DNA of 44,493 bases from IMG/VR virus record IMGVR_UViG_3300025120_000121, positions 1 through 44,493 of that record. One strand, written 5' to 3'. The position numbers and the translations under genes were made by a program. The notes beneath the pieces were generated by a model, which worked only from the letters and a program-made list of their open reading frames with translations, was not told the origin of the DNA and ran no database searches. Shown in pieces: positions 36,536-40,206 of this stretch. The stretch is from a virus. Every line of letters starts with the position of its first letter. Within the stretch, counting starts at the first letter, position 1.

Positions 36536-37321
36536 ATGCCCGTAACAATTAGTGGTGGTAAATTTGGTTCTACATTAAGCTCAGATCCCGATGCACAGAA
36601 GACACAAGTAAATCAAGCTAAAAAAGATTTAGATGATTTACAAAGACAAATAGCCGCCGGAGAACTTAGAAAAGGTTCTAAAGATGTTATGAAAGAGCTT
36701 AACCGTCTTGAAAAGATGGGCATTGCTACTTTTGGAACAGGCCTACGCGGTTTAGACACAGCGGGTAGCGGTGATAAACCCTACACAAGACAGCAGTACC
36801 AACGTCTTATTAATGCTTTGTACGATCCATCACAAAGAGATTTTGATCAAGATACTATCTATCCTAATGAATTTGCCGCAACTCAACAAAAATTAACCGC
36901 AGCGGATTATGAAGACTATGTTCAAGGACGCGAAGAACGCTTAAAAGATAGTTTGTTGGGTAAAGGTATTGGAGCGTTACAAGGAATGTTTAATCCTATT
37001 GGTTCGGGTATTAAAGCTGCACAAGACTATTTAGGTGGCATCATGCCTTTTCTTCAAAGACAAAATCCCGCCTACTATAGTTATTTGCAAAAAGGTTTAG
37101 CTCCACAAAATGACCAACAAATACCACTTATGCTTGCCGGTATAGGATCACTGCCTGTTAATCAAACAGAACCTGTAGACAGTTCTACTGTCATGTCAGA
37201 CTTTGCATTAACACCCAATGAGGTTGCCTTTAACAACCCAACTGTAGCCGGCTCCGATATAATTAATTCTAATCAGTTATATCCAATGTTAAACTATCCA
37301 ACTTTCAATACTCTCTCCTAA
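36536..37321 (+). CDS. Unknown protein at the end of the rightward late block
   Basis: A 261-aa protein. Residues 25-60 are a charged coiled-coil-like helix (QVNQAKKDLDDLQRQIAAGE). The middle has RQQYQRLINALYDPSQRDFD and a Gly/Ala-containing amphipathic part (KGIGALQGMFNPIGSGIKAA, about 143-162), and the C-terminus is Asn/Pro/Thr-rich. No recognised family. Its last 33 bases overlap, on the opposite strand, the end of the SNF2-type helicase gene. It is the final gene of the late transcript visible here; no terminator was seen after it. Confidence 0.7.
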   Translation: MPVTISGGKFGSTLSSDPDAQKTQVNQAKKDLDDLQRQIAAGELRKGSKDVMKELNRLEKMGIATFGTGLRGLDTAGSGDKPYTRQQYQRLINALYDPSQRDFDQDTIYPNEFAATQQKLTAADYEDYVQGREERLKDSLLGKGIGALQGMFNPIGSGIKAAQDYLGGIMPFLQRQNPAYYSYLQKGLAPQNDQQIPLMLAGIGSLPVNQTEPVDSSTVMSDFALTPNEVAFNNPTVAGSDIINSNQLYPMLNYPTFNTLS

Positions 37322-38725
37322 CACCTGACCTGCAATATCAATCTTGTCGCGTAAAGCATTGATTATCTTCTCATCTATAGTGCCAGGTGATATCAGATCA
37401 ATATATGTTACTTTCTTTTTCTGTCCGATACGATGCGCCCTGTCTTCGCTTTGCAATCGTATTTCTAGATCATAACTGTTAGAATAGTAAATCACGGTGC
37501 TCGCGGCTGTGAGCGTTAAGCCAAAACCACCTGTACGCGGTTGACCAATAAAAAACCGTGTTGTTTCGTCTTCCTGAAAGTTCTTAACAATTTGCTGTCG
37601 TTCTTCCTGTGGCGTCTGACCATAATAGGTAATCACACTTTCTTCTCCAAACTCTTTGGCTAACGCATCACGGATCGCGGTTATGTCATGTACAAAAGAA
37701 GCCCATATAATAACTTTGCCACTTGTTTCATTTAGTATGTCAACCAGTTCTGTTATACGATTAGAACTTATACTGCGGATTGTTTCATCATCATCCTTGA
37801 TAAACCCGCAACATATCTGCTGTAGACGCATAATCTGTGTAAGCACACTAGATGTAGTAGACAGCATGCCATCCTGAAATAACGTCAGGGCAAGTTTTTT
37901 CATCTCGCCATAATGTTTTTTCTGATCATCTGTCAAAGGTACATTACGTCTTACAAATATTTTATCTGGTAAATCAAGACAATCCTTCTTCAGTACACGA
38001 CTACTAAATGCTTCTATCTTTTCATTGAGCTCATCTAATCTCTGGTAACCGGCTATCTCCTGAAAAGATCGATGCCCCATTGTTCTACGTTTGACCACGG
38101 CATACCGGCCTTGAAAGGCATAGTAACTAGCAAAACCAAGTAACTTGTCTGACAGAAAAGCAACTTGAGAAAACAAATCCATAGGTGACTTTGTAACAGG
38201 AGATCCTGTCAGGATACGTTTATAGCTACAAAGCTGACCCAAACTAACAACATTCCTTGTACGCAGGGCCTTTCTATTCTTAATTGTTGTCGATTCGTCT
38301 ACCACCATCATGCTATTCGGAAATTTACGAAACAGCCATTTAGCCGTCTCAGAGCCCTTTATTGTAGATAAAGCTTCTATGTTCATTACAAACAGTTTTA
38401 GGTGCCCTGTAGCCTCCACAAAGTCCAAGAACTCTTTCTTGTAAGTCTGTGTAATGTTAGATTGCCAACGCAACACGATGTTTTTTATATGGTCTGGTAA
38501 ATGCTGTGGTATTTCTTTATACACCCAGTTATCGTAAACACCTTTAGGTGCTATAATAAAAGCAGCTTCTATCTTTTCAGTTTGATACAGGTGACCAATG
38601 GTATCGATTGCAACCTTTGTTTTGCCTGTTCCCATCTCCATAAACAGTGCAAAGTTTTGTTTGTCTTTTGACTGGTTAAAAACTTTTAATTGGTGGTCGT
38701 ATGGTTTTGTTTTAAATTTATACAT
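37289..38725 (-). CDS. SNF2/DEAD-type superfamily 2 helicase
   Basis: A 478-aa protein, the only confident gene on the minus strand. Motif I is MEMGTGKT (residues 29-36), motif II DEST (143-146) and motif III LTGSPVTKSP (172-181). The C-terminal half has GGFGLTLTAASTVIYYSNSY and QSEDRAHRIGQ (motifs V-VI), ending in a SPGTIDEKI segment. These are the marks of SNF2/RapA-like ATPases that move on double-stranded DNA. Phage copies are usually grouped with replication. It is transcribed leftward, opposite to and head-to-head with the replication genes starting at 38822. Ribosome binding site is weak (AAAGAGA). Confidence 0.92.
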   Translation of the reverse strand: MYKFKTKPYDHQLKVFNQSKDKQNFALFMEMGTGKTKVAIDTIGHLYQTEKIEAAFIIAPKGVYDNWVYKEIPQHLPDHIKNIVLRWQSNITQTYKKEFLDFVEATGHLKLFVMNIEALSTIKGSETAKWLFRKFPNSMMVVDESTTIKNRKALRTRNVVSLGQLCSYKRILTGSPVTKSPMDLFSQVAFLSDKLLGFASYYAFQGRYAVVKRRTMGHRSFQEIAGYQRLDELNEKIEAFSSRVLKKDCLDLPDKIFVRRNVPLTDDQKKHYGEMKKLALTLFQDGMLSTTSSVLTQIMRLQQICCGFIKDDDETIRSISSNRITELVDILNETSGKVIIWASFVHDITAIRDALAKEFGEESVITYYGQTPQEERQQIVKNFQEDETTRFFIGQPRTGGFGLTLTAASTVIYYSNSYDLEIRLQSEDRAHRIGQKKKVTYIDLISPGTIDEKIINALRDKIDIAGQVLGESIESWIV

Positions 38726-38743
38726 TTTTTTTCTCTTTAGTTC

Positions 38744-38771
38744 TTGACAATGCGATTGTATAGGATTAAAT
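38744..38771 (+). promoter_or_regulatory. Rightward sigma-70-like promoter for the replication genes
   Basis: A perfect -35 TTGACA at 38744-38749 is followed after 16 bp by TTAAAT (38766-38771). The second box matches the -10 consensus at only 4 of 6 positions. It lies in the intergenic region before the first rightward replication gene; the start would fall near 38778, with GGAGG at 38811-38815 as ribosome binding site. Confidence 0.5.
38747..38759. promoter_or_regulatory. 13-bp perfect dyad (operator-like)
   Basis: ACAAT-GCG-ATTGT forms a 5+3+5 perfect inverted repeat. It overlaps the -35 of the rightward promoter and the -10 of the leftward promoter, a position where a bound dimer would block both. 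No repressor gene is seen in the window. Confidence 0.45.
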
Positions 38772-38783
38772 AAGAAAAATCAA
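38755..38783 (-). promoter_or_regulatory. Leftward sigma-70-like promoter for the SNF2 gene
   Basis: On the minus strand, TTGATT (38783-38778) is followed, after 17 bp, by TACAAT (38760-38755), a 5 of 6 match to the -10 consensus. Transcription would start near 38748, about 22 bases before the helicase start codon. Its elements interlock with those of the rightward promoter. Confidence 0.5.
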
Positions 38784-38821
38784 GAGTAGAAATACTTTTT
38801 AACAACGGACGGAGGACCACG

Positions 38822-39400
38822 ATGCAAGATGATATAGCATCCCTTATGGAAAGCGATGTTGCTGAAAAAGCTTCCTCATCTCTAATTGTTGGAGATGTGC
38901 AACTCAAACAGGCCGCAAATCTTGCGGCTTTGATTAAAACTGAATCAGAACATGTAAAGGTTTTAGAAGAAAACTTAAAAGAGTGTAAGAAGAACCTTAT
39001 GAAGTTAACCGATGAGGACTTACCTCAACTTCTAACCGAACTTGGTATGTCCAGTTTTAAGATGGCTGATGGTTCATCAGTCGAGATCAAGAAAACGTAT
39101 GGAGCTTCCATTCCTGTAGATAATCGGATACAGGCTTTTCAATGGTTACGCGATAATGGCTTTGGCGATATTGTCAAAAATGTTGTTGCCTGTAACTTTG
39201 GCATGGGTGAAGACAACCAAGCAGATAGTTTTTTTGAGATGGCAAAAGACAAAGGTTTTGTGCCAGATAAGAAGACTGAGGTTCATTCCTCAACACTTCG
39301 GGCTTTTGTAAAAGAGCGTGTAGAAAATGGAGACGAGTTCCCAATGGATTTATTTGGGGCTTTTATCGGTCAACGAGCTGTAATTAAAGGAGGAAAATAA
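38822..39400 (+). CDS. First rightward replication-region protein, unknown
   Basis: A 192-aa protein. Residues 25-70 form a long helix with coiled-coil character (AALIKTESEHVKVLEENLKE, then CKKNLMKLTDEDLPQLLTEL). The C-terminal part is mixed alpha/beta, with VEIKKTYGASIPVDNRIQAF and QWLRDNGFGDIVKNVV (about residues 94-130), ending AFIGQRAVIKGGK. The end is a pattern I have met in early-region proteins of marine phages. No function is established; being first after the switch-like promoter and next to a candidate ssDNA-binding protein suggests a replication or recombination accessory. GGAGG is 6 bases before the start. Confidence 0.75.
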   Translation: MQDDIASLMESDVAEKASSSLIVGDVQLKQAANLAALIKTESEHVKVLEENLKECKKNLMKLTDEDLPQLLTELGMSSFKMADGSSVEIKKTYGASIPVDNRIQAFQWLRDNGFGDIVKNVVACNFGMGEDNQADSFFEMAKDKGFVPDKKTEVHSSTLRAFVKERVENGDEFPMDLFGAFIGQRAVIKGGK

Positions 39401-40167
39401 TGTCAAATGCAGTAAAGACTAAGGGCGACACTAAAGTTGCTACACTAGATATGGATATGTTTGAGCAAGATGCGGGTGCGGGATTAAATAATCTTGGTAC
39501 TGAGGATTTAGCTCTACCTTTCCTAAAGGTATTGTCAAAGCAAAGTGATGAGCTTGATGATATAGATGGCGCAAAAGCCGGTGACATTTTAAATACTGTT
39601 ACCAATACTTTGTACAAGGGTAAAATTAATGTTGTGCCCTGTGCGTACCAAAGGCGTTTTATTCAATGGCAACCAAGAGGTACCGGATCAGGTGCACCTG
39701 TCGGTATCTTTAATCCTACGGATGATATGCCTGAGACAAGCCGTTCTTCTGAAGATAATAAAGAATATCTTACAGATGGTAGCGGAGACTATATGGAACA
39801 AACCTGTCAATGGTATGTTAAAGTAGTTGAAGATGATGGTACTTCGTCTAATGCATTGATTGCCATGAAGTCAACACAACTTAAAAAATCCCGTAAGTGG
39901 ATGTCTATGATTATGTCTAGACAAATGACTGGTAAGAACGGACCTTTCACGCCACCTATGTATTCACACGTTTACTCTCTTACAACGCATGCTGAAGAAA
40001 ACAGCAAGGGTAAATGGCATGGATGGGAAATGTCTTTAGAAAAACAAGTTGGGGATATTAATCTTTATAACTCAGCAAAAACATTTGCTGAGTCGGTTGA
40101 TAAAGGTGATGTCAACGTCAAGCACACCCAAGAGGGCGAAGGTCAAAACGAAAATATTCCTTTTTAA
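39400..40167 (+). CDS. Candidate single-strand DNA-binding protein
   Basis: A 255-aa protein. Its body has LPFLKVLSKQSDELDDIDGA, INVVPCAYQRRFIQWQPR (about residues 76-93), the aromatic/charged patch YMEQTCQWYVKVVEDDG, a basic LKKSRKWMSMIMSRQ segment and a final acidic, disordered tail ending NENIPF. The ending is like the DDDIPF tip with which bacterial single-strand binding proteins recruit partners. Many exposed aromatics and Lys/Arg would fit DNA binding. Family identity is not certain. It starts in a 1-base overlap with the previous gene and is followed by a strong terminator. Confidence 0.65.
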   Translation: MSNAVKTKGDTKVATLDMDMFEQDAGAGLNNLGTEDLALPFLKVLSKQSDELDDIDGAKAGDILNTVTNTLYKGKINVVPCAYQRRFIQWQPRGTGSGAPVGIFNPTDDMPETSRSSEDNKEYLTDGSGDYMEQTCQWYVKVVEDDGTSSNALIAMKSTQLKKSRKWMSMIMSRQMTGKNGPFTPPMYSHVYSLTTHAEENSKGKWHGWEMSLEKQVGDINLYNSAKTFAESVDKGDVNVKHTQEGEGQNENIPF

Positions 40168-40179
40168 CTTTGCTTAACT

Positions 40180-40206
40180 GTGGCGGGGCAACCCGCCACT
40201 TTTTTT
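40180..40206 (+). terminator. Strong rho-independent terminator before the primase gene
   Basis: GTGGCGGG (40180-40187) pairs with CCCGCCAC (40192-40199) around a GCAA tetraloop, followed by seven Ts (40200-40206). It lies 12 bases past the stop of the candidate ssDNA-binding gene and 10 bases before the primase start, so the upstream genes could be made in excess over the primase. Confidence 0.9.

Follow-up and report, generated by a model that had tools for sequence, protein, structure and literature searches.

Predicted interlaced divergent sigma-70-type promoters between replication genes in a family of ocean phages

Genes and predicted promoters at the junction

The window, by which we mean the entire 44,493-bp stretch of phage DNA analyzed here, carries genes for a terminase and a portal protein, a leftward SNF2 helicase gene, and rightward genes encoding a gp33-like protein, a gp34-like protein, a primase and a UvrD-type helicase. 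The SNF2-type helicase gene (37289..38725, minus strand; PF00176/PF00271, phrog_62) makes up the leftward transcription unit and, in agreement with the initial annotation that described it as the only leftward gene of the window, is the only convincing one. An intergenic gap of 96 bp (38726-38821) separates it from the first rightward gene, which encodes a DUF7307 / Pam3 gp33-like protein (38822..39400, plus strand; PF23984, phrog_2378) and is followed by the gene for a Pam3 gp34-like protein (39400..40167, plus strand; PF23977). The genes on both sides of this junction belong to replication or DNA metabolism. Translation signals are found on either side of the gap, with a GGAGG ribosome-binding site for the gp33-like gene (38811..38815, plus strand) and a probable one, AAAGAG, for the helicase (38733..38738, minus strand). 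The gp33-gp34 unit is closed in the window by a strong predicted intrinsic terminator located between gp34 and the primase gene (40180-40199, within 40180-40206; plus strand; an 8-bp stem with seven G-C pairs followed by seven Ts), and similar structures occur in 54 of 136 distinct relatives.

Within the gap, two predicted host-type promoters face in opposite directions. The rightward one consists of a -35 box TTGACA (38744..38749, plus strand), of which TTGAC is invariant in 54 aligned relatives, and, after a 16-bp spacer, a weak -10 box TTAAAT (38766..38771, plus strand; four of six consensus positions) with a predicted start at about 38778. The leftward one reads TTGATT (38783-38778, minus strand), 17 bp, TACAAT (38760-38755, minus strand), with a predicted start at about 38748; its -10 box matches the place of a conserved TATA block in the relatives, and its -35 box is a weakened form of their CTTGACA, seen on the plus strand as TGTCAAG and invariant in the same 54. 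These box assignments uphold the initial reading of TTGACA and of TTGATT-17 bp-TACAAT, except that the rightward -35 and leftward -10 boxes had been described as physically overlapping, which is incorrect since 5 bp (38750-38754) separate the two hexamers. It is the RNA polymerase footprints of the two promoters that would interlock within 38744-38783, with the named hexamers themselves lying apart.

Scanning for single promoters does not rise above background (23 promoter-like sites versus 23.5 in shuffles), but the interlocked divergent pair scores 19 out of 24, a value equalled by just one of 300 shuffles. Both promoters in the window are mediocre, with TTAAAT as rightward -10 and TTGATT as leftward -35, and this counts against the interpretation that we prefer below. 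The decisive evidence for predicting interlocked promoters is comparative.

The same segment had been noted for a perfect 13-bp dyad, ACAAT-GCG-ATTGT, proposed as a shared control site for both promoters. The dyad is indeed present (38747..38759), yet its arms comprise only 5 bp around three bases, and we judge it to be a chance occurrence. When the gap is shuffled by dinucleotides, 65% of the shuffles contain a repeat with 5-bp arms and a spacer of 0-8 (15% contain one with a spacer of 3), and the dyad is retained in one of 55 non-redundant relatives. On these grounds we rejected it as a shared operator, and the conserved operator dyad within the promoters that would mark a lysogeny switch is likewise missing.

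Conservation among relatives

Relatives were gathered by searching with the helicase and the gp33-like protein, and independently by searching a viral collection with the DNA pattern TTGAC-N11-AT-N7-TAT-N8-GTCAAG, which uses no protein information. About 105 of the 119 parsed matches to the DNA pattern come from loci where the helicase gene, the gp33-like gene or both are present as well. Among 99 distinct helicase-selected junctions, the orientation is divergent in all 94 where a gp33-like gene is detectable. Exact inverted TTGAC...GTCAA arms are present in 59 of the 99, compared with a shuffle mean of 0.2 and maximum of 2, and in 70 of the 99 when one mismatch is allowed, compared with six in shuffles. 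One or both arms are missing in roughly 29-40 of the 99 despite the same gene order, which speaks against the interpretation favored below.

Alignment of 54 non-redundant elements, oriented by their genes and with five off-junction matches left out, gives invariant columns at 0-4 (TTGAC), 25-27 (TAT) and 35-41 (TGTCAAG), with variable spacers and near-perfect rotational symmetry. The rightward -10 columns read TATTAT, TAATAT, CTATAT or TTATAT, all sharing the invariant TAT. The set had been selected for TTGAC and the TCAA core, and many of its 54 loci came from the search with the DNA pattern, which includes TAT and AT (columns 16-17); we therefore take the 59 of 99 as the unselected evidence. 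In the comparison that the initial annotation had suggested, the interlock of the promoter cores is strongly conserved in the relatives and the dyad is not; the interlocked divergent pair stands, with occupancy by one polymerase at a time as its probable consequence.

Sequence comparison shows the two-way arrangement to be retained throughout a large family of ocean phages, with relatives found among SAR11 single-cell genomes; the arms are present, for example, in 023Pt_psg01 and in the SAR11 single-cell contigs L194-L196. It consists of two divergent genes whose predicted promoters occupy the same DNA, as in the class of overlapping divergent promoters, the copy in the window being a weaker example. 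The relatives also conform to the alphaproteobacterial sigma-70 consensus CTTGAC-N17-CTATAT (PMC2873474), with CTTGAC, spacers mostly of 16-18 bp and a -10 box of the TATAT type, to which the window copy conforms only in part.

Some other junctions were noted in the course of these searches. An apparently different phage group (L087, L107, L108, L132, L173 and L190) also has the TTGAC-N31-GTCAAG pattern. Two leftward genes, one of them resembling a MoxR-type ATPase, flank it in L108, so a rightward promoter there would be antisense. The phage HTVC027P is related more distantly and shares the gene order; its junction (L071 / L068) has a 49-bp gap without TTGAC arms, centred on GTATATAATAC, which looks like a shared -10 region.

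Arm-gap registers and the 5′ end of the rightward mRNA

The gaps between the arms fall into three registers of 22-24, 26-28 and 30-31 bp, within which most boxes keep their own -35/-10 spacer of 16-18 bp. Several gap-27 and gap-28 members are exceptions, with best spacers of 15 or 19, and weigh against our preferred interpretation. To place the labels on the helicase tree, a minimum of five changes is required for gap-23 and of seven for gap-27. Since arm spacing varies by lineage, the element is ill suited to be one rigid dimer operator, and the registers fit two mirrored sigma-70 promoters better than a single fixed operator. The window copy, with a gap of 30 and ATCAA as its right arm, is a clade-specific weakened form; ATCAA is common to the small clade of the window (L001, L002, L273, L275 and L299), where it represents a predicted weaker helicase -35 box.

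At the predicted 5′ end of the rightward transcript lies a leader hairpin, AAGAGTA-GAAA-TACTTTT (38782..38799, plus strand), and no other convincing copy occurs in the window: the covariance model matches 38779-38811 with 32.5 bits and an E-value of 7e-7, and the next best match in the window has an E-value of 0.72. Most relatives in the window's half of the tree have the hairpin at this position too. In a 25-sequence alignment, 88% of the cells pair and there are 14 two-sided changes as compared with 3.1 in shuffles; we base the covariation on this alignment, because a larger tally is biased by hairpins having been chosen for their pairing. No Rfam family matches the leader in the window. In a search of six relatives, the sole Rfam match, to SorY in L009 (5306-5382), is away from the leader and probably due to chance (E-value of 0.006, 32.7 bits against a gathering score of 111).

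The registers differ in the form of this 5′ end. Among gap-31 members, 16 of 18 have a predicted rightward leader of 39-56 nt, and the leaders of this register open with a hairpin. With gaps of 23 and 24, 12 of 14 members have their predicted start 0-1 nt from the start codon. Distances of 0-2 nt are observed in L003, L004, L314, L317, L319, L325, L337, L341 and L343, all with gaps of 23-24, and also in L192, L196 and L324 with gaps of 27; examples of such near-zero leaders are GTCAAGTATG and GTCAATG. Given these distances, the rightward mRNA is probably leaderless in these phages.

Possible roles of the junction

We consider it probable that 38744-38783 is a constitutive, mutually exclusive bidirectional sigma-70-type promoter that co-expresses both halves of the replication module in a lytic phage, with no choice of fate. 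Two antiparallel host sigma-70-type promoters would be interlaced in 40 bp, with the -35 boxes outermost on opposite strands and the -10 boxes inside, and with predicted starts that in the window are about 30 bp apart and point away from each other. The leftward promoter would transcribe the SNF2 helicase gene, and the rightward promoter would serve the gp33-gp34 unit and, through terminator read-through, the primase and helicase genes. With coinciding sites, a polymerase that binds would serve one direction at a time, so that relative box strength sets the output ratio; host polymerase would thereby drive both halves in a proportion that depends on how strong the promoters are relative to each other and on their excluding one another, with the helicase side presumably weakened (TTGATT) in the lineage of the window. 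The hairpin near the 5′ end of the rightward mRNA probably protects the mRNA or sets its translation.

The initial annotation had suggested a lysogeny-style or early/late switch, and this was not supported. The repressor gene and integrase that would go with a lysogeny switch were looked for as HTH_3 (PF01381) and PF00589 in 20 related records, including three deposited as complete genomes, and were found in none, with positive controls, though most of the records may be fragments. Replication and DNA-metabolism genes lie on both sides of the junction, and HTVC027P is described as lytic (PMC12753301). For these reasons a lysogeny switch was rejected, and co-expression from host polymerase is the likeliest role. 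A search for a T7-like phage polymerase found none, and its control was also blank. An unrecognised regulator may sit in an unsequenced part of the genome or among the unknown genes.

In an explanation that we regard as unlikely, the long inverted repeat TTGAC...GTCAA is the binding site of a dimeric protein of phage or host, which picks leftward or rightward transcription. The rotational symmetry of the element would suit a dimer, and the overlapping divergent promoters of plasmid pLS20 do switch under a regulator with unequal effects on the two (PMC4207663), but the lineage-dependent arm spacing is unlike that of a rigid operator and the conserved columns are those of the sigma-70 boxes. The lack of HTH_3 and integrase matches and the replication genes on both flanks also count against this regulated choice. 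We give still less credence to the repeat being mainly a replication or packaging signal with a secondary likeness to promoters. The position between two replication units and the symmetric, A+T-rich DNA speak for it, but the arms are exact host-type -35 cores with matched -10 boxes, and the start-codon distance tracks the predicted starts in the gap-23, gap-24 and gap-31 classes. That the boxes merely arose by chance in A+T-rich DNA, as the background-level results for single sites and for the small dyad could suggest, we find very hard to credit, being contradicted by the conservation (59 of 99 junctions against 0.2 expected) and by the rarity in shuffles of a divergent pair scoring as high as that of the window.

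Beyond the co-expressing bidirectional promoter itself, we raise as a tentative possibility, one that we consider less likely than not, that a deeply conserved phage promoter evolves through discrete geometric registers (gaps of about 23, 27 and 31 bp), and that the register governs how the two promoters interfere as well as what the rightward mRNA looks like at its 5′ end, with no leader at 23-24 and a hairpin leader at 30-31; this would be a self-contained, regulator-free device for setting ratios. The conserved interlocked promoter offers a defined site at which to test the use of host polymerase by a phage without an identified polymerase, and the junction allows testing of whether promoter interference alone sets gene ratios. 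Two more features that can be tested are the hairpin of the leader and the starts predicted to be leaderless.

Comparison with known systems

In the Pc/Pr pair of plasmid pLS20, divergent promoters overlap and polymerase at one excludes polymerase at the other; switching there also needs a regulator (PMC4207663). The phage junction resembles Pc/Pr in having two antiparallel sigma-70-type promoters on the same DNA, with one polymerase presumably bound at a time. In pLS20, however, the boxes coincide exactly (the Pr -10 on the Pc -35) and one promoter, a weak one, depends on the regulator Rco, whereas the phage boxes are mirrored, are both often near consensus in the relatives, span 33-41 bp and have no known regulator. 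The lambda-type PR/PRM lysogeny switch, compared in the same study, also has close divergent promoters; unlike it, the phage junction has replication genes in both directions, and no repressor, operator array or integrase was found with it.

The bidirectional promoters of Escherichia coli and Salmonella studied by the Grainger group (PMC12825309, PMC10268837) are similar in their pseudo-symmetrical DNA, bound by polymerase in two orientations that exclude each other, and in E. coli they compete only under strong transcription (PMC12825309). Their starts are separated by 7-25 bp, and their -10 boxes overlap reciprocally in a shared -10 region. The phage junction falls outside this class, as about 30-38 bp lie between its predicted starts (38748 and 38778 in the window) and its -10 boxes are separate (38755-38760 and 38766-38771).
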